The position numbers were made by a program, and so were the translations under genes. This document shows, in pieces, positions 2,598 through 56,266 of a stretch of 56,266 nucleotides of DNA. Origin of the DNA: a virus. Location: IMG/VR virus record IMGVR_UViG_3300046170_000364, positions 1 through 56,266 of that record, one strand, 5' to 3'. Numbering within the stretch: the stretch's first letter is position 1; each line of letters opens with the position of its first letter. The notes under the pieces are model-generated. The model was not told where the DNA came from and did no database searches. It saw only the letters and a program-made list of their open reading frames with translations.

Positions 2598-3189
2598 ATG
2601 GCAATCCCTCCATCCATAACAAGCGGCGTGGATGCGGTATGGGTTGATGCCGAGACTGTTGACGTGTTTGGCGATGCTGTAACCAGCTCCACTCACTCTC
2701 TGGTCTATTACTTTCGCCTTAACACCAATTCGCAGGGCTTAACGGCAACGGCGGTTGCTTACAACAGCGGCTGGAAGACTACGCTGACTGCTGCCGCGAC
2801 TGGTTCAGCAGACCCCAGTCCTAGCTGGTTTTTTCAAGCTGTTCTCACGAAGACCGGTGATAGCACTGTTCAGGAATACAGCCGAGGCCAGATTGAGATT
2901 CGCCCTTCTTTGGCGTATACGGGCACACCTGGAGCGTTTGACGGCAGGACGCAGGCTCAACAGGACTTGGATGCAGTAAAAGCAGCCATCAGGTCCATCG
3001 TTTCTGGCGGCGCTGTCTCTGAGTATAAAATCGGGAAGTCGTAATTTAAAGCGATACGATCTCTCAGGAATTAATCGAACTTGAGTCAAGATTAAAGTCT
3101 ATCGTGGCTAAAGGAGAATAAAGCCAAACTGATTGCCTCAGGGCCTTGGCGATCCACATAATCTCTACGTTCGATTTAACGGAAGCTGA
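2598..3189 (+). CDS. gpW-like head-tail connector with extra N-terminal domain
   Basis: As written, the reading frame stops at 3044 after 148 residues. Reading across four one-base insertions (GGG near 3033, GG near 3070, the AATAA stretch at 3117-3121, GGG at 3141-3143) gives about 195 residues. The rebuilt C-terminus reads SEYKIGSRNLKRYDLSELIELESRL then GLGDPHNLYVRFNGS, matching gpW-type connector proteins. The rebuilt stop TGA (3187-3189) then overlaps the portal ATG at 3189, which supports the repair. The first 110 residues are a beta-rich domain I do not recognise. Four repairs in one gene is much, so the exact sequence is uncertain. Confidence 0.6.
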
Positions 3190-4169
3190 TGGGACTTCGT
3201 ACACGATTTCTAAGAACGCTGGGGCTCCAGCGAGTGCCACGGGATCAGCCTCGTCGCCGTCGCCGTAGCTATGCGGGTGCGATTGTTTCGCGTCTTACTA
3301 GCGACTGGATGAGCACTAGGGCCAGTGCTGATGCCGAGATTCGGAACAGCCTGAGCAAGCTGCGCGACCGTTCGCGTGAGATGGTGCGGAATAATCCGTA
3401 TGCAAAGCAGGCGAAGCGCACCACTCAAGTCAATGTCGTTGGCAGTGGTATCAAGCTCCAGTCCCAGGTTCAGCAGGTTCGTGGCCGGAAACCCAGTGAA
3501 GCGATTAATCGCCTCATTGAAGAGAAGTGGCATTTATGGACCCGTGCGCAGTATTGCGATGTTGCGGGGCGACATAGCTTCCACATGATGGAATGGCTGG
3601 CGACTGGTGCTTTACCTGAATCAGGCGAAGCGTTGTTTCGCATCATCCGGCGTCCGTTTGGGGGCAGCAGGGTGCCATTGGCCCTTGAGATGATCGAGTC
3701 TGATGTGCTTGATGAGGAGTATCAGGGACCAACGCTCGCGAAGCTCAATGAGTGGAGGATGGGCGTTGAGATCAACGAATGGGGTCGCCCTGTTCGTTAT
3801 GCGTTCTTAACTCGTCATCCTGGCGACTATTGGTTCCAGAATGCACCTCAGAAAGGTGACAAGCATGTTTTCCTGCCTGCGGAAGACGTAATTCACTTGT
3901 TTCTTCCAGAGCGTCCGCAACAGCATCGCGGAGTGCCCTGGTTCCATTCAGTGATGGCTGATGCTCATCAGTTGCAGGGTTACGAAGAAGCCGCTGTGAT
4001 TCGCGCCCGTGCTGGTGCTTCTGTAATGGGATTTGTCACAAGCCCAGAGGGTGAGCTTGAGGGCGATGATGTCGAAGCTGATCGCAGAATTAGCGAGTTT
4101 GAGCCTGGGATGTGGAAGTATCTGGAGCCTGGTCAGAATGTTGAGCGTTCCAAACATCAGCTCGCCTGA
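3189..4169 (+). CDS. portal protein (lambda gpB-like), segment 1
   Basis: N-terminal two thirds of the dodecameric ring through which DNA enters and leaves the head. The start has the usual arginine-rich opening, followed by the lambda-family portal core: RSREMVRNNPYAKQAKRTTQVNVVG, FRIIRRPFGG and EDVIHLFLPERPQQHRGVPWF. The frame holds to about 4147, where one extra T (CGTTCC for CGTCC) shifts it; the end as written (KHQLA) is false. ATG 3189 overlaps the connector stop. Confidence 0.88.
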   Translation: MGLRTRFLRTLGLQRVPRDQPRRRRRSYAGAIVSRLTSDWMSTRASADAEIRNSLSKLRDRSREMVRNNPYAKQAKRTTQVNVVGSGIKLQSQVQQVRGRKPSEAINRLIEEKWHLWTRAQYCDVAGRHSFHMMEWLATGALPESGEALFRIIRRPFGGSRVPLALEMIESDVLDEEYQGPTLAKLNEWRMGVEINEWGRPVRYAFLTRHPGDYWFQNAPQKGDKHVFLPAEDVIHLFLPERPQQHRGVPWFHSVMADAHQLQGYEEAAVIRARAGASVMGFVTSPEGELEGDDVEADRRISEFEPGMWKYLEPGQNVERSKHQLA

Positions 4170-4674
4170 TCAGCAGTACGAGATGTTTGTGAAGAATAAG
4201 GTTCGGCGTTTTGCGTCAGGTTTTGGTTGTTCTTACGAGACGTTATCGCGTGATTTCAGCGAGACGAATTACAGCAGCAGCCGGTTGAGTTTGCTTGAAG
4301 ATCGTGAGCACTGGAAGGTTATTCAGTCTTATTTGATCGAAAACTTTCATAATCGGGTATTCCGCGAGTGGCTTGACTTAGCTGTATTGGCTGGTGAGCT
4401 TCCGTTCGATGATTACGATTCACGTCCTGAGCGTTATGACACTCCGCGATGGATGGCTCGCGGATGGGATTGGGTTGATCCATTGAAGGAAGCAAAAGCT
4501 TATCGCCAGATGGAGCAGGCTGGTTACATGACCAAGGCTCAGATCGTCGCGAAGCTTGGCGGAGACTTCTTTGACAACCTCACTGAGTTCTCTCGTGAAC
4601 AGCAAGCAGCCGAAGAGCTTAACGTTGAGCTTGATCGTGACATTATTGATGAACTCCCAGAGGAGGTTGAGTGA
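4033..4674 (+). CDS. portal protein, segment 2
   Basis: C-terminal third of the portal. True coding here starts near 4148 (PNISSPDQQYEMFVKNKVRRFASGFGCSYE in short pieces) and includes the conserved YDTPRWMARGWDWVDPLKE segment typical of lambda-family portals. The first about 38 codons are shadow. The gene ends in an acidic tail (DELPEEVE) and a TGA that overlaps the next ATG at 4674. A strong AGGAGG (4661-4666) within the portal end serves the next gene. Confidence 0.85.
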   Translation: MSQAQRVSLRAMMSKLIAELASLSLGCGSIWSLVRMLSVPNISSPDQQYEMFVKNKVRRFASGFGCSYETLSRDFSETNYSSSRLSLLEDREHWKVIQSYLIENFHNRVFREWLDLAVLAGELPFDDYDSRPERYDTPRWMARGWDWVDPLKEAKAYRQMEQAGYMTKAQIVAKLGGDFFDNLTEFSREQQAAEELNVELDRDIIDELPEEVE

Positions 4675-28447: not shown

Positions 28448-29369
28448 TGGTGACGTAACACAAAACGTGACAAACTTCTCCAGCGCCTGGAACGACTGCA
28501 GCGGGCTGACCAGCTTCCCGCTAATCGTTACATCTGAAGGCACTGACTTCTCCAGCGCCTGGAACGGCTGCAGCGGGCTGACCAGCTTCCCGCTAATCGA
28601 TACATCTGAAGGCACTGACTTCTCCAACGCCTGGAACGGCTGCAACAGCCTCACTAGCTTTCCATTGATTAATACATCTTTAGGTACAAATTTCAACGGT
28701 GCTTGGGACGGCTGCAACAGCCTCACTAGCTTTCCATTGATTAATACATCTTTAGGTACAAATTTCAACGGTGCTTGGAGCGGCTGCACCAGCCTCACTA
28801 GCTTTGCGTTAATCGATACATCTTCAGGTACAAATTTCAGCGGTGCTTGGACCAACTGCTTCAACCTCACTAGCTTTCCGTTAATCGATACATCTTCAGG
28901 TACAAGTTTCGCCAGTACTTGGAACATCTGCAGCGGCCTCACTAACTTTCCGTTAGTCGATACATCTTCAGGTACAAATTTCACCCGTACTTGGCGCAGC
29001 TGCAGCAGCCTCACTAGCTTTCCATTGATTAATACATCTTCAGGTACAAATTTCACCTTTGCTTGGAGCGGCTGCAGCAGCCTCACTGATTTTCCCGCTA
29101 GCTTCTTTGATTCATGGGCCGGGACACCCGTTGATGAGTGCTTTTATCAAACTTGGAATGGTTGCACCAGCCTCACAGCGACTTCAGTCGATAACATCCT
29201 TGTTTCAATTGCTGGCTCCGGTGTTTCCGCACCTAGCGGCACCGGCACTGACGATAAAAAGATCACAATCGACTATGACGGCACAACCCTCCCAGGCACT
29301 ACAGCCACAGCAATCACCACCCTTAAGTCCCGTAACTGGGAAATCTACCTGAACGACGTTCTCCAATGA
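28227..29369 (+). CDS. receptor-binding tail fibre, segment 3: BspA/DUF285 repeats
   Basis: Coding is true from about 28443 (ADGDVTQNVTNFSSAWNDC) to the TGA at 29369. It contains eight tandem 24-residue repeats of the type TSxGTxFxxAWxxCxxLTSFPLI plus one partial before them, the bacterial-surface 26-residue/BspA-like repeat family. A capping region (FDSWAGTPVDECFYQTWNGC) and a C-terminal domain follow. Such repeat solenoids bind host surface ligands. The first 70 codons as written are out of frame. Confidence 0.75.
   Translation: MLFTAAARWISAVLHASQTDLIQVLLPTGKMRSAIAAVLLELSRLLISPQLRTSQAHGMDAVVWLLCQRSLVADGDVTQNVTNFSSAWNDCSGLTSFPLIVTSEGTDFSSAWNGCSGLTSFPLIDTSEGTDFSNAWNGCNSLTSFPLINTSLGTNFNGAWDGCNSLTSFPLINTSLGTNFNGAWSGCTSLTSFALIDTSSGTNFSGAWTNCFNLTSFPLIDTSSGTSFASTWNICSGLTNFPLVDTSSGTNFTRTWRSCSSLTSFPLINTSSGTNFTFAWSGCSSLTDFPASFFDSWAGTPVDECFYQTWNGCTSLTATSVDNILVSIAGSGVSAPSGTGTDDKKITIDYDGTTLPGTTATAITTLKSRNWEIYLNDVLQ
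28530..29105 (+). repeat. 72-bp in-frame tandem repeats in the fibre gene
   Basis: Eight units of 72 bp from ACA at 28530. Units 3 and 4 share a nearly identical stretch (about 28655-28790) that looks like a recent duplication; others differ at several sites. They encode the BspA/DUF285 solenoid, so unit gain or loss would keep the frame and change the length of the receptor-binding arm. Confidence 0.85.
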
Positions 29370-36171: not shown

Positions 36172-36729
36172 TTAACTCAAGCTTGCGATTTTAGCAATAA
36201 GCTGACTGCATTCTTCCTCTGAAAGGTCGTTGGAAGCTCTGAGTTCAAGAATGCGCTGGCGAATCGAATCAAGCTGTGACGGGTCAGCCTCTTCGATCTT
36301 TTTCATTGCAGGCTTGAATACACCTGTAGGGTGCAGCTTCTGCACAATTTTGCGGCGCTTGGGCGGTACCCAGGCACAGCTGATTTCTGCGTCAATCTCA
36401 GGGCTCCCATAGATGCGAATGCAGGGTTCATTTTTGCGAAGCGGGTGAGGCATGACCTGATTGGTCGCGTAAAAAGTGACGCGCTTCCCAGGCCACAAAG
36501 CCACATCGTTACCAAAAAGCTTGATCAATGGAATGGCATTGATTTTGGCCAATGTCAGTTCAGGGTTGATTTCCTGAAACGACATGATCGTCTGCAGCTT
36601 GGGCTCCTGATCGTCGAAGGCCACTTCGGCTGTGCGAACACCCTTTACAGTCAGCGTCATGCGGCCAGAAGCAGGGAACATGAATGCCTTTAGCCAAGGC
36701 TCATTCATTAAGTCACCTACAAATTCCAT
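36172..36729 (-). CDS. early protein beside the exonuclease, unknown
   Basis: 185 residues, possibly starting at the second Met (ATG 36708, MNEPWLKAFMFPASGR). The body is beta-rich (MTLTVKGVRTAEVAFDDQEPK, LWPGKRVTFYATNQV), then a basic PPKRRK stretch and a C-terminal helical pair (LDSIRQRILELRASNDLSEEE). It directly follows the RecE-like gene and may be its recombination partner, though it does not look like RecT. Confidence 0.5.
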   Translation of the reverse strand: MEFVGDLMNEPWLKAFMFPASGRMTLTVKGVRTAEVAFDDQEPKLQTIMSFQEINPELTLAKINAIPLIKLFGNDVALWPGKRVTFYATNQVMPHPLRKNEPCIRIYGSPEIDAEISCAWVPPKRRKIVQKLHPTGVFKPAMKKIEEADPSQLDSIRQRILELRASNDLSEEECSQLIAKIASLS

Positions 36730-37559
36730 CAGATTCCCTCCAGCAGATCAGAAACGTCAGTGTCATTCGCTGGATCATCAACTTGGAACCAGCGTGGAGC
36801 TTCCATCGTATTAATGCCCCACGATGGCCATTCATTAGTGCCACGGCAAGCTTTGATGCCTGCGATGGCATCGTTACGACGCTGACGACCAACCTCTAGT
36901 AGCTCATCGCTAATGATGTTCACCGAATAGTTGAACGGATAAGCCCACTCGTAAGCCAGCAGCACAATTTGCTTTGGATAAGCACCGTGGCGGTCTCGGA
37001 ACCCCTCAGCATAGTGACTTGCTTGGAGATCGTACCCAAGTGCAAACGACTGCCTAGCAAAATCGCGTGGGTTAGCACTCCGGGCTTTCTTTAGGTCCAC
37101 AAGCAAACCGTCTTCTGGTTGCTCCAGATCAGGCAGATAGCGGCACTCAACATCGTTTTCTGCATCGTGCCAAAAGTGAGGCACCTGCCCTGAGCCTTGC
37201 AGAAACTCAGAAGCAATCGGATCATTCTTTAGTTTGCTGACAATCAGCTGGGCAGTGTGGTGCCATTCCTCAGTGATCAGATCTGCACACTTGGAGCGGG
37301 CAAGTTCTTGAGCCTCTGCCCAGATTTCCTTGCCTGCCCTTGAGCGTCGGTCCACCTTGGGAACGACTACATATTTACGACTGAACTTTTCGGGCTCTGT
37401 GATCAAACAGTCAACCAATGAGCCCTGGCGCATTGCGTCAGAAGGCACCATCGGTATACGGTCTGGATCTTCGTAAGCAGCCCAAAAATCGGCTGCGGTG
37501 CCGCAAGCGTATTTCTTAAGCTTGCTAGCTGATAAGGCGGGATGATCGTGATAATTCAT
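36729..37559 (-). CDS. RecE/YqaJ-like exonuclease (PD-(D/E)XK)
   Basis: 276 residues. The start ALSASKLKKYACGTAADFWAAY is the usual opening of exodeoxyribonuclease VIII-like (DUF3799) proteins. GSLVDCLI (about 47-54), CRYLPDLE with Asp144, and LLVDLKKA with Asp155 and Lys157 give the PD-(D/E)XK site. Such enzymes chew 5' strands for single-strand annealing recombination. It overlaps its neighbours on both sides. Confidence 0.82.
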   Translation of the reverse strand: MNYHDHPALSASKLKKYACGTAADFWAAYEDPDRIPMVPSDAMRQGSLVDCLITEPEKFSRKYVVVPKVDRRSRAGKEIWAEAQELARSKCADLITEEWHHTAQLIVSKLKNDPIASEFLQGSGQVPHFWHDAENDVECRYLPDLEQPEDGLLVDLKKARSANPRDFARQSFALGYDLQASHYAEGFRDRHGAYPKQIVLLAYEWAYPFNYSVNIISDELLEVGRQRRNDAIAGIKACRGTNEWPSWGINTMEAPRWFQVDDPANDTDVSDLLEGI

Positions 37560-44524: not shown

Positions 44525-46684
44525 ATGCCTAACTCTGTTCTTATCGACTGGTCAATCACCGATGACTTCCTTGAAGCCATCGGTCGCAGCACCGGCCCCA
44601 TAGTTGTTGCTGTTTACCCCTCAGATCCGTCGCGGCCTTGCATCCACATCAAGGCGGACGCAGAGGACCTGCCGCGAAACAAAATCGAACGCATCCTCGC
44701 TCGTAACTCAGGCAGCAGTCTTGGCTTTGTAGTAAACCCACCCTCAGACCAGCCTGCCGTATGGGGCACCAAGCCAGAGCACATCAACCGGGCTGGTGAG
44801 ATTAAAGCTTGGGGCGCATCCAATGCCCACATCGAGCACGCAATCGCCTGCTTTGCAGAGTGCGACGGCAATCTCGACCGCGAAGCTCAAGCGGCACTGC
44901 CCGCAATGGCTGGCCTCCCGGAACCAACGGTCTCGGTCTGGACTGGTGGCAAATCCCTCCACCATTACTGGCTGTTCACCCCAGGCCAAGAGCCGGACAT
45001 CCAAGATTTCTCGGACTTGCAGCGCCGGATCGCCACGGCAATCGAGATTGTTGCGCCTGACTCCAAGCCAGACAAGGCGATCTCTAACGCATCTCGCGTC
45101 ATGCGCCTGCCCGGTGGTATCCACCCCAGTACTGGCGAACGCACGGTTATCGCCTCGACCAGAACTGAAACATTCACCCCAGACGAGATCGGTGCTGCTG
45201 CTCCAACGATTCTTCAACGTGGCACCCGCCCAGCAGAACCGTCTCATCACTGGTTTTCTAAACTCCCACCCGCAGAGCAGCGCACACTTGCTGTTGAAAT
45301 CCTCCGTGATTACATCCCACTCCGCACTGAAGCAGGCCAAGGCACCTATCCAACCTGCTTCGCCTGCCTCGCTGCTCTAACTCACCATTTCGGACAGTCA
45401 CTTGCACAGGACATCGTTCTGGAAGCTGACTGGCAATCACCCGGCACATGGGAGCCAGCCAAAAAGATCCTTTCAATCGGTGATGCACCAATCAGGGCGT
45501 CAATCAGCAGGCTGATCAACACCGCAATAGCAAACGGCTGGGAATTACCCCAAAATGTTGATACCGAAGAGCCAAACGAAGCACCAGAAGAACATCATGC
45601 AGTCATACCTTTTCAGTTTCTTGGTTATGAACATGGCAAGCATTACTACATGCCTAGAGCAAGTTCACAAGCAATTGAACTGACAATATCGTCACATACT
45701 AAACTGCACCTAATTTCGCTAACAAGCTCCTTAGAGTTCTGGCAGCGCAACTTCACAGTCAACGACAAGCTTGACTGGGATCTTGCTACCGAATGGCTAA
45801 TGCAAGAATCACACAAAAAAGGTGTATTTGATCCTGATCGTATTAGAGGCCGTGGTGCTTGGGTAGATGCTAATCGCGTTATCTTTCACCTTGGCATGAG
45901 AATGATAGTTGATAATCGCGAGCAAAAAGTATCAGACGGAATATCGAGTTACTACTTTTACGAACACGCCAAACCCCTTGATGGGCCTAGTGAAATCCCG
46001 TTAGAAGACGATGTTTCGGTTCAGCTTTTTAGACTTGCAAAGTCTTTCTCTTGGGAATCACCTTCCTATGCGTTCCTGCTTGCTGGCTGGGTTGCTCTTG
46101 CTCCTATCTGTGGCGCACTTGAGTGGCGCTCACATATCTGGGTCACCGGAGGTAAGGGCACGGGTAAGACAACAATCCTCAGTCGTTTCCTTAAGCCTTT
46201 GCTAGGCGGCATTTATCAATCAGCCACAGGTGGAACCACTGAACCTGGCCTTCGCGCTGCTCTCCGGTCTGATGCAATCCCTGTACTGTTCGATGAATTT
46301 GAGCAGAACGACTCCCGCGAAAAACAAAATCGCGACAACGTTCTAGCAATGGCAAGGATCGCATCATCGGAAGGCGGCAAAATCATTAAGGGCTCTGCTG
46401 GTGGTGGTGCCGCTAATCAATACGAAATCCGCTCCATGTTCTGTGTTTCATCAATCAATGCTTCCTTAGTGCAAGGCGCTGATCGTGATCGCTTCTGTGT
46501 CCTTACCTTGCAGAAGGGCGAGGGGGACTGGCTCCCGCTTGAGGCACAGATCGCCAAGCTCTGTACTCCCGAAACAGGTCGCAGCCTGGTGGCACGAACA
46601 CTGGCACGGGTGCCGACTATTAGGGCCAATGCGCGGAAGTTTGCAGCGGCCCTAGCTGATCGAGCACGGTCAGCGTTTTGGTGA
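44525..46684 (+). CDS. primase-helicase, segment 1
   Basis: 719 residues as written. Residues 1-300 look like a PrimPol-type primase (SVWTGGKSLHHYWLF, SRVMRLPGGIHPSTGE). The middle links to a DUF927/SF3-like ATPase with Walker A TGGKGTGKTT (about 541-550), Walker B PVLFDEFEQND and a sensor stretch FCVSSINASL. It should prime and unwind DNA at the origin. Two extra bases, T near 46677 and G near 46700, break the end; repaired it continues SAFGDQHGTLLAGAFSLLPG. Confidence 0.8.
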   Translation: MPNSVLIDWSITDDFLEAIGRSTGPIVVAVYPSDPSRPCIHIKADAEDLPRNKIERILARNSGSSLGFVVNPPSDQPAVWGTKPEHINRAGEIKAWGASNAHIEHAIACFAECDGNLDREAQAALPAMAGLPEPTVSVWTGGKSLHHYWLFTPGQEPDIQDFSDLQRRIATAIEIVAPDSKPDKAISNASRVMRLPGGIHPSTGERTVIASTRTETFTPDEIGAAAPTILQRGTRPAEPSHHWFSKLPPAEQRTLAVEILRDYIPLRTEAGQGTYPTCFACLAALTHHFGQSLAQDIVLEADWQSPGTWEPAKKILSIGDAPIRASISRLINTAIANGWELPQNVDTEEPNEAPEEHHAVIPFQFLGYEHGKHYYMPRASSQAIELTISSHTKLHLISLTSSLEFWQRNFTVNDKLDWDLATEWLMQESHKKGVFDPDRIRGRGAWVDANRVIFHLGMRMIVDNREQKVSDGISSYYFYEHAKPLDGPSEIPLEDDVSVQLFRLAKSFSWESPSYAFLLAGWVALAPICGALEWRSHIWVTGGKGTGKTTILSRFLKPLLGGIYQSATGGTTEPGLRAALRSDAIPVLFDEFEQNDSREKQNRDNVLAMARIASSEGGKIIKGSAGGGAANQYEIRSMFCVSSINASLVQGADRDRFCVLTLQKGEGDWLPLEAQIAKLCTPETGRSLVARTLARVPTIRANARKFAAALADRARSAFW

Positions 46685-47193
46685 TCAACACGGCACCCTG
46701 CTCGGCAGGTGCATTCAGCCTGCTCCCAGGCAGTGATCGTGAGCTGTCTGATGTAGAGGCTGCTGAGTTTTGCGCTGGCATCGACTGGACATCACAGCGG
46801 CGCGATGAACGTGACGCTGATGAGGATCAATGCCTTGCGCGGATCCTTGAGTCAATGATCGCCGTGGAGGGCGGCAGAAGGTTCACGATCATGAATCTTG
46901 TCGAGAGTCTTTGCGGTCCCAAAATGGGAACTATTGAAGGTTCTGATGAAACTGCGGAAAAAGTTCTTGGCAGATATGGAATCAGACTTATGTCCGGTTC
47001 GATGATGATTGCTAATTCAAATACGAATTTAGAACGGCTTTTGAATGAGACAGCATGGTCTGGAGGGGCTCACAAGCAAGCACTGAAGCGGGTTTTCGGG
47101 GCTTCAGGCTCCACAGGAATGGTGAGATTCTGCGGAAGTAAGTCATCTAGGGCTACAGTGATTCCACTGACGGCAATTATCGACACGGATTAG
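46678..47193 (+). CDS. primase-helicase, segment 2: C-terminus
   Basis: True from about 46705 (AGAFSLLPGSDRELSDVEAAEF) to 47193. The C-terminal domain of about 165 residues (LVESLCGPKMGTIEGSDETAEKVLGRYGIRLM in pieces) has winged-helix-like character and may bind the origin just downstream. Whole protein about 888 residues. Confidence 0.72.
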   Translation: MVINTAPCSAGAFSLLPGSDRELSDVEAAEFCAGIDWTSQRRDERDADEDQCLARILESMIAVEGGRRFTIMNLVESLCGPKMGTIEGSDETAEKVLGRYGIRLMSGSMMIANSNTNLERLLNETAWSGGAHKQALKRVFGASGSTGMVRFCGSKSSRATVIPLTAIIDTD

Positions 47194-51990: not shown

Positions 51991-52170
51991 TAGACAAATA
52001 AGGTCACTAAATATCATAATCCTAACTCGATGCGAGTTAGCATCAAATAGCGATACCTTGCTTTAGATTTAACAATCACTATTTTTAACATTGCTAAACG
52101 CATTGTTTAAGCAAACTCAAAAAGTAGGTGTTAGCGACTCTGTGAGTTTGTTGTTAATAGTGTTGTTTAG
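51991..52170. other. AT-rich palindromic zone before the 26-bp array
   Basis: No gene. A perfect palindrome CTAACTCG-ATG-CGAGTTAG (52022-52040), overlapped by GATGC/GCATC, and a wider pair CAAACTCA (about 52112-52119) with TGAGTTTG (about 52143-52150). The low GC contrasts with the GC-rich cassette that follows. It could be a replication or partition site with the array. Confidence 0.45.
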
Positions 52171-52940
52171 TTAGTGATGTTCACCGCCCCGGTGGGTTAG
52201 TGATGCTCACCGCCCCGGTGGGTTAGTGATGCTCACCGCCCCGGTGGGTTAGTGATGTTCACCGCCCCGGTGGGTTAGTGATGTTCACCGCCCCGGTGGG
52301 TTAGTGATGCTCACCGCCCCGGTGGGTTAGTGATGCTCACCGCCCCGGTGGGTTAGTGATGCTCACCGCCCCGGTGGGTTAGTGATGTTCACCGCCCCGG
52401 TGGGTTAGTGATGCTCACCGCCCCGGTGGGTTAGTGATGTTCACCGCCCCGGTGGGTTAGTGATGTTCACCGCCCCGGTGGGTTAGTGATGTTCACCGCC
52501 CCGGTGGGTTAGTGATGCTCACCGCCCCGGTGGGTTAGTGATGCTCACCGCCCCGGTGGGTTAGTGATGTTCACCGCCCCGGTGGGTTAGTGATGTTCAC
52601 CGCCCCGGTGGGTTAGTGATGTTCACCGCCCCGGTGGGTTAGTGATGTTCACCGCCCCGGTGGGTTAGTGATGCTCACCGCCCCGGTGGGTTAGTGATGC
52701 TCACCGCCCCGGTGGGTTAGTGATGCTCACCGCCCCGGTGGGTTAGTGATGTTCACCGCCCCGGTGGGTTAGTGATGTTCACCGCCCCGGTGGGTTAGTG
52801 ATGTTCACCGCCCCGGTGGGTTAGTGATGTTCACCGCCCCGGTGGGTTAGTGATGTTCACCGCCCCGGTGGGTTAGTGATGCTCACCGCCCCGGTGGGTT
52901 AGTGATGCTCACCGCCCCGGTGGGTTAGTGATGCTCACCG
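52171..52940. repeat. 26-bp tandem array, 29 full copies plus a partial
   Basis: Exactly 29 units of 26 bp (52171-52924) and 16 bases of a thirtieth. The unit is TTAGTGATG, then T or C, then TCACCGCCCCGGTGGG. Only the T/C site varies (16 T, 14 C). Each unit carries a CACCG-CCC-CGGTG dyad. No spacers and no open frame. Candidates are an iteron/incompatibility array, a centromere, or a slippage-made minisatellite. Confidence 0.95.
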
Positions 52941-53014
52941 CAAGTTGCCACCGGGGGCCGTGTCCTTAGCAACGGGGCCGCCCTGCAAACCGTCCACCGG
53001 TCCTTAACGCTTGC

Positions 53015-53044
53015 TTGCCAGTGGCGGGGGCATGCCCCTATAAA
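53015..53044 (+). promoter_or_regulatory. sigma70-type promoter with a palindrome in the spacer
   Basis: TTGCCA (53015-53020), 18-base spacer, TATAAA (53039-53044). The spacer ends in a perfect 12-bp palindrome GGGGCATGCCCC (53027-53038) touching the -10, a classic place for a repressor or activator. It drives the gene at 53093 and probably the whole cassette. Confidence 0.65.
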
Positions 53045-53092
53045 GGGTGAGCGATCGAAGCAACGATCGAAAATTAAATTGAAACCGAATCC

Positions 53093-53311
53093 ATGCACGC
53101 TCACACCTCTTCCGCCCTTCGCTTCTTTGGCTTTGGCGCAGCTGCAACCGGGGCCGTTCTGATTCACCTTGCTCTGGTGTCGGCTGCGATCCTTCCCATG
53201 GATTCCGAGGCATCCCGCAAGGGCTTAGGTGAATTCATTCAGGCTTCTTTGGCCACCGTGGCGATCGGCGCTGCTGCCGGTTCAATTGGCACGGCTGCAA
53301 AGCGCAGCTAA
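53093..53311 (+). CDS. small two-helix membrane protein
   Basis: 72 residues. A first hydrophobic helix FFGFGAAATGAVLIHLALVSAAIL (about 11-34), a short polar loop with MDSEASRKG, and a second helix ASLATVAIGAAAGSIGTAA (about 51-69). Rich in Ala and Gly. First gene of the GC-rich cassette behind the promoter at 53015. It could be a toxin-like, holin-like or anchoring protein; nothing identifies which. Confidence 0.6.
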   Translation: MHAHTSSALRFFGFGAAATGAVLIHLALVSAAILPMDSEASRKGLGEFIQASLATVAIGAAAGSIGTAAKRS

Positions 53312-53330
53312 TCACTTAACCCTAATTTTT

Positions 53331-53340
53331 TTCTTTAAAA
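53331..53340 (+). promoter_or_regulatory. shared leader motif TTCTTTAAAA, copy 1
   Basis: The same ten bases occur before the gene at 54313 (54287-54296). Both leaders are AT-rich and have no Shine-Dalgarno. It may enhance initiation on unstructured mRNA or bind a regulator. Confidence 0.35.
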
Positions 53341-53342
53341 CA

Positions 53343-54053
53343 ATGTCAAACACTTGTCACCCTTACGATCCCTCTACCGTTAACGCTAGGGAGTTTATCT
53401 CGGGTTTGCACCCCCGCCATTCTCGCGCTGGCGTGATAGTGAGCTATCGGGGGCCTACTAATAAGCGGGGCGCAGTTTGGCACGGTTCAATTAAGCGAAA
53501 CGCTAACGAAAGGGCGATCACCGCCACCGTCCCCAGCTATGACGGCCCCGATTCTGCAGCCAAAGCCGTGCTAGTTAAGGCAGACCTGAACTGGCGTCTC
53601 CTGCCCGCCGCATGCTTAGACGGCGGTGATCGTTACGCTTACGCTGCAGAATTGGCCCCCGGCGAAGGGGCCGCCCTTGCACAGGGTGAGCGGGGCATTC
53701 TGGCGATGCATGCATGCCAGTTGATGGGGCATCGCACGGCCCCCTACGGATCGGCCCGTATTGTTGCCGACATGGCCACCGGGCAGCGCAGACCCGAGCC
53801 CATCGTGGCGGGGTGGCGAAAGGGCCACCCGATCCTCGAGACCGTAACGGTCAGGGATCATTTGTGGCGGGATCTTTTTACGCTGAACGATAGCTTCGCA
53901 CCGATTCACGCTATGGCCTGTGCAAGGGCCGCCGGTTGGATTCTGTCGGCTGATTCTCTCGATCTTGCTAAGAAGTGGGTTGATGAATTGGGGCAGACCC
54001 CCGACGCTGCCGGGGTGGCCATTGCTCGCACAGCTTGGGAAGCCCGATCATGA
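53343..54053 (+). CDS. cassette protein of unknown family, 236 residues
   Basis: I choose ATG 53343 over an upstream in-frame codon lying inside the previous gene. Beta-rich start (HSRAGVIVSYRGPTNKRGAVWHG), a central AVLVKADLNWRLLPAACLDGG, then helical parts (ILAMHACQLMGHRTAPYGSA; DLAKKWVDELGQTPDAAGVAIARTAW). GC-rich codon use. The stop overlaps the next ATG (ATGA, 54050-54053). I do not recognise the family. Confidence 0.65.
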   Translation: MSNTCHPYDPSTVNAREFISGLHPRHSRAGVIVSYRGPTNKRGAVWHGSIKRNANERAITATVPSYDGPDSAAKAVLVKADLNWRLLPAACLDGGDRYAYAAELAPGEGAALAQGERGILAMHACQLMGHRTAPYGSARIVADMATGQRRPEPIVAGWRKGHPILETVTVRDHLWRDLFTLNDSFAPIHAMACARAAGWILSADSLDLAKKWVDELGQTPDAAGVAIARTAWEARS

Positions 54054-54283
54054 TCCGGCCCGGTGATCGAGTTCGGTACTCATCCAAATATTGTCGACAA
54101 TTGGGGGCCGTGTCGGGGTGGCTGCCCTCAGCGCGGGGCACTGTTACCCGCCTATGGGGGACCGGTGATCGATTAGCTGCGATCACATGGGACTATCACC
54201 CCGACGGCCCCGGCAGTCAGGGCGGGGCGGGAGTTGACGTGTTGCAACGGCTCACCCCGTCGGGGTGGCGGCCCCGTTCCTGA
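54050..54283 (+). CDS. small SH3/KOW-like cassette protein
   Basis: 77 residues from ATG 54050. MIRPGDRVRYSSKYCRQLGA, then SARGTVTRLWGTGDRLAAITWDYHPDG: a PGDRVR...GTVTRLW...AAITWD pattern of a small SH3-like beta-barrel, often used to bind nucleic acid or a partner protein. Co-translated with the 236-residue protein through ATGA. Function unknown. Confidence 0.6.
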   Translation: MIRPGDRVRYSSKYCRQLGAVSGWLPSARGTVTRLWGTGDRLAAITWDYHPDGPGSQGGAGVDVLQRLTPSGWRPRS

Positions 54284-54286
54284 TTC

Positions 54287-54296
54287 TTCTTTAAAA
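54287..54296 (+). promoter_or_regulatory. shared leader motif TTCTTTAAAA, copy 2
   Basis: Identical to 53331-53340. Here it lies 17 bases before the ATG at 54313. Confidence 0.35.
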
Positions 54297-54312
54297 ATCT
54301 TCTATTAATTCA

Positions 54313-55422
54313 ATGATCATGCAAACCGCACCAACTGCCCGTAAGAATGCCCCCTTAGGGCTGCCCGGTGACGTGTCAACTCTATTGGGCCGTTATGACT
54401 TAACCCTGTCGGGGCTGTTGACCGATTCAAACCCCAAGCTGGTAAAGGGGGAAGGCCGGGCCGTGATTCTGCATCACTTGCCCGCCGACGCTTTGGCCCG
54501 TGCTTTGGATTCTGACAACGGCGGCCCGGTGGCTGCCCGTAATTATCTGCCCGATGTGGCGGCCCTTGCGGCCCGGAACGGAATGATCACGGCGGGCTTA
54601 AGGCACAACGGTTGCCCGTGGAAGACTCCCGCATGTTCCCGTGATTGTCTCGCTTTTAGTGGTAGGGGTGGGCTTGGAACAGTGCCCGCCGAGGCAAGGG
54701 CTAGACGCACTTTGGCAATGATCGCCGACCCCGTAGCGTATGGGCGGGCCGTGCTTTGGGCGATAGCTTGGCATCACCGCCGGGCAGCTGATGAGGGCGA
54801 GAGACTGGCCGTAAGGTTACGGGGCACCGATGAGGGCCCCGTTATGGGATGGCACCGGCTCAGACTGCCGATCACTGCATCGGAATCTATGCAGCTTGCC
54901 CGACGGTTTGGCTTAAGTGTGCCCGTTGCCGGTGGCCCCCGTGATCCCGACGGCGGGGCCACACTCGCCGATCTCGCGGGGCACCTAGCCACCTTCTACG
55001 ACTATTCCAAAGCGCCACTACGGGGGCCGCTAGGTTTGGAAGCGCAGCGGGCAGCCGGTTGGGACGTAACCGCAAGTATGGCCCCCGATGCCCCCGACGC
55101 TGCCCGCCGTGTTATTGACGCGGCCCGTGCTGGGTTCCGGGTGGCGGTGCCCGTAGCATTAAAGAAGGGGCAGCGCATCCCGCAAGCGATCACGTTTAGG
55201 GCGCAGGATCGCCAGCCGTTAACACTGGCTACGGTTGACGGTGACGCCCATGATCACCGTTATCGGGAACCGGGCGGGGTGGCGGTGATCCTGAGGCAGA
55301 AACGATCAAGGGGGGGGCAGGGTTCCGGCTCACCTTTCTTCTTAAATGCCCCCGACGCCCCCCGCCGTGATCAAGGGATATCGACGGATCTTCCCGACGG
55401 GGTGGCTCTCTCTTACTGGTGA
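54313..55422 (+). CDS. GP88-like protein
   Basis: 369 residues. CPWKTPACSRDCLAFSGRGG (101-120; Cys101, Cys108, Cys112) followed by AEARARRTLAMIADPVAYGRAVLWAI resembles the GP88 family known from actinobacteriophages, with its C...C..xCLxxSGRG...AR..RT core. The family has no known function; the three Cys and a GRG could bind a metal or cofactor. The second half has repeated Ala/Pro/Asp stretches. The start may be ATG 54313 or 54319. Ends before tandem terminators. Confidence 0.6.
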   Translation: MIMQTAPTARKNAPLGLPGDVSTLLGRYDLTLSGLLTDSNPKLVKGEGRAVILHHLPADALARALDSDNGGPVAARNYLPDVAALAARNGMITAGLRHNGCPWKTPACSRDCLAFSGRGGLGTVPAEARARRTLAMIADPVAYGRAVLWAIAWHHRRAADEGERLAVRLRGTDEGPVMGWHRLRLPITASESMQLARRFGLSVPVAGGPRDPDGGATLADLAGHLATFYDYSKAPLRGPLGLEAQRAAGWDVTASMAPDAPDAARRVIDAARAGFRVAVPVALKKGQRIPQAITFRAQDRQPLTLATVDGDAHDHRYREPGGVAVILRQKRSRGGQGSGSPFFLNAPDAPRRDQGISTDLPDGVALSYW

Positions 55423-55439
55423 TCTAAGCCCCTAAACTG

Positions 55440-55461
55440 CCCCGGCCCTACCGGGCTTTTT
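55440..55461 (+). terminator. first of two tandem terminators
   Basis: CCCGG (55441-55445), loop CCCTA, CCGGG (55451-55455), C, five T. Follows the GP88-like gene. Confidence 0.7.
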
Positions 55462-55468
55462 ATTGCTT

Positions 55469-55502
55469 GCCCCTATTGCCTGGCCCGGTGATAGGGGCTT
55501 TT
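55469..55502 (+). terminator. second terminator, with an alternative pairing
   Basis: GCCCCTAT (55469-55476) pairs with ATAGGGGC (55491-55498), then four T. The same right arm (TAGGGGCTT, 55492-55500) can also pair with AAGCCCCTA at 55426-55434, which would enclose the first terminator. Confidence 0.65.
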
Positions 55503-55506
55503 AATG

Positions 55507-56044
55507 CCCTGGCGGCTGATCGCCCTGGCGGCTGATCGCCCTGGCGGCTGATCGCCCTGGCGGCTGATCGCCCTGGCGGCTGATCGCCCTGGAGCTGATC
55601 GCCCTGGCGGCTGATCGCCCTGGCGGCTGATCGCCCTGGAGCTGATCGCCCTGGAGCTGATCGCCCTGGAGCTGATCGCCCTGGAGCTGATCGCCCTGGA
55701 GCTGATCGCCCTGGCGGCTGATCGCCCTGGAGCTGATCGCCCTGGAGCTGATCGCCCCTGGAGCTGATCGCCCTGGAGCTGATCGCCCTGGAGCTGATCG
55801 CCCTGGAGCTGATCGCCCTGGCGGCTGATCGCCCTGGCGGCTGATCGCCCTGGCGGCTGATCGCCCTGGCGGCTGATCGCCCTGGAGCTGATCGCCCTGG
55901 AGCTGATCGCCCTGGAGCTGATCGCCCTGGAGCTGATCGCCCTGGAGCTGATCGCCCTGGAGCTGATCGCCCTGGAGCTGATCGCCCTGGAGCTGATCGC
56001 CCTGGAGCTGATCGCCCTGGAGCTGATCGCCCTGGAGCTGATCG
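55507..56044. repeat. 15/16-bp GATC-bearing tandem array, 35 copies
   Basis: Units are CCCTGGAGCTGATCG (15 bp, 23 copies, one with an extra C) or CCCTGGCGGCTGATCG (16 bp, 12 copies). The 16-bp units occur in blocks (1-5, 7-8, 14, 21-24); the last eleven units are all 15 bp. A 36th unit decays after CCCTGGAG at 56052. Each copy holds one GATC. Not coding: the 16-bp units break any frame. Confidence 0.95.
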
Positions 56045-56123
56045 CCCTGGAGATATATCGTAAAATCCTATTCTTAAATCAATGCTCTACTTTATACAAT
56101 CTATTAATCGTAGTAAAATATTG

Positions 56124-56153
56124 TTGACAATAGCAATCTGATAAAAATATATT
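56124..56153 (+). promoter_or_regulatory. outward promoter near the right end
   Basis: Perfect -35 TTGACA (56124-56129), 18-base spacer, TATATT (56148-56153), in an AT-rich 220-base tail without genes. If the ends are joined, it reads into the terminase operon about 270 bases away, so it could be the late promoter. Confidence 0.5.
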
Positions 56154-56254
56154 TTTAAGAAAAATAATTTATAGATTTATATCGTAGGATTGACTATGTA
56201 TTACTAATAAAAACTAAAAATTTTTAAGGGTCCTATGTAACACTAACCACTGCG

Positions 56255-56263
56255 AAGGTATTC
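56255..56263. repeat. 9-bp terminal direct repeat, right copy
   Basis: AAGGTATTC, identical to bases 1-9. The flanks differ (G before the next base on the left copy, T here). Confidence 0.3.
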
Positions 56264-56266
56264 TGA

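Follow-up and report, generated by a model that had tools for sequence, protein, structure and literature searches.

Genes and features at the right end of the genome

The window, by which we mean the whole stretch of viral DNA analysed (56,266 nucleotides), carries near its right end a gene island followed by a non-coding tandem array at 55506-56052. The array lies between the island's terminator-like hairpins and AT-rich DNA beyond which come cosQ, cosN and the small terminase gene, terS. It is not an isolated piece of ORF-free DNA, as a second non-coding array, 29.7 copies of a 26-bp unit, was found by Tandem Repeats Finder at 52170-52941, where it forms the other border of the island. On the + strand between the two arrays, we located a gene for a small hydrophobic protein (53093-53311) homologous to island proteins of two relatives (L007 and L008), a gene at 53343-54053 whose ORF opens at 53229 and whose homologues start at 53343, and a GP88-family gene (54313-55422; PF17338, phrog_1617), which is the last gene before the array. 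For the predicted fold of the GP88 protein (mean pLDDT 68) no PDB entry matched at E ≤ 0.001, and its sequence likewise had no convincing match. Two terminator-like hairpins follow GP88 on the + strand, one at 55441-55455 and the other, with 12 pairs and a TTTT tail, at 55469-55498, ending 8 bases before the array. The pattern scan is weak alone, as its hits in the region were about as many as in shuffles; folding of 55410-55530 gave z = -3.0. Elsewhere in the window, an exonuclease VIII-like gene (36729-37559, - strand; PF12684, phrog_412) is a candidate for end resection. A 72-bp repeat with 8.6 copies lies inside a tail-region ORF at 28470-29087, and L108 has an array that agrees with it in statistics and consensus.

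To the right of the array, an AT-rich spacer that is alignable in close relatives (56053-56227) extends 175 bp to a cosQ-like GGGTCCT (56228-56234, + strand). Within this spacer, a promoter-like TTGACA-18-TATATT (56124-56153, + strand; 11 of 12 matches) sits inside the palindrome TATTGTTGACAATA and is a possible promoter towards terS across the joined cos ends. The cosQ-like motif recurs in relatives and in lambda, and precedes by about 27 nt the right cohesive-end sequence AAGGTATTCTGA (56255-56266, + strand), which matches the left cohesive-end sequence AAGGTATTCGGA (1-12, + strand) in 11 of 12 bases; both the G and the T variant of the differing base occur in relatives. Contig starts identify this left end as the physical genome end. 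Our small-terminase scan found 367 relatives, and among the 80 terS-bearing contigs kept for the start-position count, 36 by pattern and five more by eye (41) begin at the base that is position 1 of the window. In the window and 16 relatives, the motif GGGTCC[CT] precedes cosN by 25-29 nt; in lambda, GGGTCCTTTCC precedes the right end by 30 nt. After cos come the terminase small subunit gene (155-712, + strand; phrog_57) and then terL, which is the lambda-type order. Given the matching ends, the stacked contig starts and the cosQ-like motif at lambda spacing, we read the window as an apparently complete genome of a lambda-type cos phage. In lambda the right end is packaged last and enters the cell first, and by analogy the right end of the window would likewise be the last packaged and the first into the cell.

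Among the matches of the capsid protein are S-CBS1, S-CBS3 and S-LBS1, phages of Synechococcus. A picocyanobacterial host is likely, and no firmer than that because the terminase and capsid relatives include phages of other bacteria; a genome scan for the host gave one MAG match only, which was uninformative. The first 2.2 kb of the record also hold four single-base insertions; each relative compared lacks three or all four of them, and by appearance they look like read errors. Reading frames are broken in the terminase (699-2306), portal (3189-4674) and primase (44525-47193) regions. Because the terminase-region insertions are missing from relatives, read errors are likelier than decay for these broken frames.

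Structure of the 15/16-bp array

Tandem Repeats Finder reported a period of 15 with 35.6 copies, 97% matches and a score of 893 over the 547 bases of the array, and among ORFs of at least 60 aa none covers it. Decoding resolved about 35 units, with a 15-mer, GCCCTGGAGCTGATC, in 22 exact copies (21 counted separately and one inside a 31-base stretch) and a 16-mer, GCCCTGGCGGCTGATC, in 12. One further 16-base unit has an extra C, a base that is not to be trusted in view of the terminase-region insertions described above. With A for the 16-mer and b for the 15-mer, the units run AAAAA b AA bbbbb A b (b + extra-C unit) bbb AAAA bbbbbbbbbbb. The array thus has the architecture given in the original prediction, which had described 35 GATC sites at 15-16-base spacing with the units in blocks; the uniform run of eleven 15-mers at its right end is likewise real. 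The lengths of its tandem, non-coding units fall within the 10-60 bp of minisatellites (VNTRs). Structured RNA was rejected as the identity of the array for lack of an Rfam match and from the fold values: the advantage over shuffles is slight for the array unit and the unit of a relative, L005 (z -1.0 to -1.3), and nil for that of another, L019 (z 0.3).

The high density of GATC is special to the array, since in the 52 kb that precede the left array GATC occurs 299 times, against 291 expected from sub-words. It speaks for the idea that the array serves methylation-dependent binding, SeqA-like or HIP1-like, or partition; there are 35 GATC in 547 bp, and GATC is found in the arrays of L009, L025 and L088 too. 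However, GATC is present in 3/11 array families only and missing from most of the sister arrays that occupy this position, so it is not conserved at the locus as a SeqA/Dam-type site would be. The HIP1 octamer GCGATCGC occurs 0 times in the window outside the arrays (1-52160 and 52942-55500 searched) and is therefore not over-represented. HIP1 and its GATC methyltransferase have been described as excluding picocyanobacteria (PMC4390886), the likely hosts. Partition is an unlikely function, since the unit varies among near-identical relatives and no parAB was found in the subset of ORFs scanned. We accordingly consider GATC reading or partition highly improbable. It is possible that the array blocks read-out, as had also been suggested, yet two terminator-like hairpins already precede it.

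Arrays of relatives differ at the same place

An exact two-unit search found the array in no other viral contig, and with a looser search for its core, L009 was the only viral contig with more than one match. Relatives whose TerS proteins are 98-99% identical (L009, L005/L022 and L008) nevertheless carry different units at the homologous place: CGCCCTGGCGCCGAT in L009, CGGCCTGGAGTGCT in L005/L022 and CACGCAGGCGCACAGGCGG in L008. Further array families occur in L004, L007, L019, L025, L027, L037 and L041, and all 8 records found with the exact AT-rich flank motif carry an array directly left of it. One and the same array family has 35 units in the window and 16 in L009, a copy-number difference between closely related genomes.

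The comparison with L009 also bears on how the units arose. The 16-mer is identical in the two phages; the 15-mers differ, L009 having its own, GCCCTGGCGCCGATC, and each is homogeneous within its phage and one substitution off the same one-base deletion of the 16-mer. Both arrays start on the left with 16-mers and end on the right with 15-mers. The unit classes have been homogenised separately in the window and in L009, a pattern that fits concerted evolution. These observations support the repeated local copying proposed originally; its direction, from the right, is not proven by them.

An assembly artefact might be suspected, as the record has probable single-base insertion errors and many related contigs begin or stop within their arrays. 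Against this, L009 contains the whole of a 16-unit array of the same family and L008 that of a different array with 21 copies, each with both flanks in view, which makes an artefact very unlikely.

Since the array adjoins cos in every array-bearing relative with cos in view, it could instead be a packaging element, either part of cos or an extra site at which terminase binds or stalls. In lambda, cosQ is required for ending packaging, and cosQ, cosN and the cosB region explain packaging of this type (PMC4669245); these are present without an array in relatives. The GGGTCC motif near the genome end of S-CBS1 and S-CBS3 also has no array. A site read by TerS is unlikely, as TerS is nearly identical where the arrays differ. 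Nineteen loci (L132-L182) have a GP88 homologue with a cosQ-like motif 205-624 bp downstream and the GP88-family gene as the last before the motif, and only L003 and L135 among them have a clean short-unit array between the two. A clean array is likewise missing from L085 and L092, whose gene order is the same. Because L085, L092 and most of the 19 GP88 loci are without a clean one, and because of the distribution of GATC among families, we conclude that packaging does not require the array and that it is not a GATC device either; a packaging element of any kind seems improbable.

Units of different families have a core in common. GGCGGC, on the + strand, is present in 7/11 array families, compared with a maximum of 4 in 100 unit shuffles. 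This points to a single ancestral seed and perhaps to a functional site. A sequence-specific protein-binding array is conceivable, in which a host or phage factor reads GGCGGC, for example as a Chi-like stop for a RecBCD-type nuclease from the right end, or as operators of the cos-side promoter. The arrays of L004, L019, L027 and L037 hold 8, 18, 14 and 4 sites within one mismatch of Chi, all on the + strand; the reference for this scoring was E. coli Chi, which may not be that of a picocyanobacterial host. A nuclease that enters at the right end would read Chi in this + strand orientation. In marine Synechococcus, recBCD is present (PMC5101192). The window's array, however, is free of Chi-like sites, and GGCGGC has been lost from its commoner 15-mer; the arrays of L005, L025, L007 and L088 lack GGCGGC as well, and several relatives have no clean array. 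We therefore regard protein binding as possible, though rather unlikely.

The island between the arrays is biased in its words

Within the window's island (52942-55505), repeated 6-mers show an excess of 1.78 over shuffles, vs 1.14 in the backbone, and at the left array the island words jump from about 3 to about 30 per 250 bp. Word-biased islands, with largely strand-symmetric composition and borders that are abrupt at the arrays, occur in the window, L003, L004, L005, L008, L009, L085 and L092. The words differ from phage to phage: GCCC/GGCC in the window, CTCT/GAGG in L009 and L005, CGCG in L004 and AAAA/TTAA in L008. Even GP88 homologues of 42-66% identity have differing word sets. The 26-bp unit of the left array is the same in L106, related in L009 and unrelated in L005, L004 and L008. 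Neither strand of the L092 island (1-2900) contains AGGA, and both have hardly any CCTC, CTCC, GCCC or CCCC, a possible avoidance of motifs.

The array is not part of this dialect. CTGGNGG never occurs in the window's island and CCTGG occurs once, and the array beside the AT-rich island of L008 is GC-rich. A match between array and cargo protein is also unlikely, as the two assort independently: the window and L009 have the array core in common and different cargo genes, whereas L005 and L009 have cargo in common and different arrays. The word bias could come from mutation or from selection. We considered, and hold doubtful, that the two arrays mark the borders of a first-to-enter island rewritten in a phage-specific dialect, with the dialect adaptive and the arrays boundary elements rebuilt at each turnover. 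If this were true, the dialect might allow escape from word-specific host defence or silencing, for example, or block recombination between co-infecting relatives. Right-end gene islands of this kind are widespread in aquatic phages, and their word composition shifts sharply between otherwise similar relatives; the island setting of the array is more novel than the array itself.

Discussion

Taken together, its position, its unit classes and its divergence among close relatives make it probable that the array in the intergenic spacer beside the right cohesive end of this lambda-type cos phage is a lineage-specific minisatellite, variable in length and sequence and with at most a sequence-tolerant role. 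Such an array may have grown from a short GC-rich, GGCGGCC-like seed, and a site about 0.2 kb from the end cut by terminase would have been open to continued change in length and sequence. Resection by the phage's exonuclease VIII-like enzyme followed by annealing in the wrong register could add or remove units, and the presence of the gene in the window supports the minisatellite reading. Replication slippage would be an alternative route to gain and loss of units. Any role would have to tolerate sequence change, for instance that of a spacer or an insulator that separates the island operon from the cos-side promoter, and would not involve reading of GATC. Two observations count against a minisatellite. 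The recurrence of GGCGGC could be due to common descent or to a conserved binding site, and an identical 16-mer alongside diverged 15-mers is, from the sequences compared, unexpected under plain drift.

What was suspected to be a methylation array is recast here as a fast-evolving spacer at a cos end, and the analysis anchors the genome by its ends, its cosQ and, through homology to lambda, its packaging direction. In the open-access literature that we searched, no such array beside a cos site is described.

Among known systems, lambda offers a close parallel for the cos region: in the window, too, GGGTCCT precedes a 12-base end sequence, by 27 nt, and a small terminase gene lies downstream. 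Unlike the window, with its 35 units left of cosQ, lambda has no tandem array in its last 104 bases. S-CBS1, S-CBS3 and S-LBS1 have capsid proteins related to that of the window (41-47% identity), and S-LBS1 also has a related terminase (52%). No 15-bp array was seen in any of the three, and they are without the GP88 island, since GP88 had no match in any record of the phage collection. In S-CBS1 and S-CBS3 a minor tail gene is the last before the record end, with GGGTCC after it. The last 160 bases of S-LBS1 contain a 9-bp repeat (AGGTTGGGC x4.2); the dense CCTAACC/AGGTTGGGC repeats before terS in this cultured Synechococcus phage (L104, 8489-8526) are a possible counterpart of the array. The HIP1 palindromes of cyanobacteria resemble the array in that it too has GATCGCC, but they are dispersed, whereas the array is tandem and GCGATCGC is missing from the rest of the window. 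With minisatellites, or VNTRs, the array has in common its short GC-rich units, its homogenised classes, and lengths and units that differ among relatives. It departs from them in its fixed place by a cos site, where it borders a word-biased island, and would thus be an ordinary type of element in an unusual and informative place.
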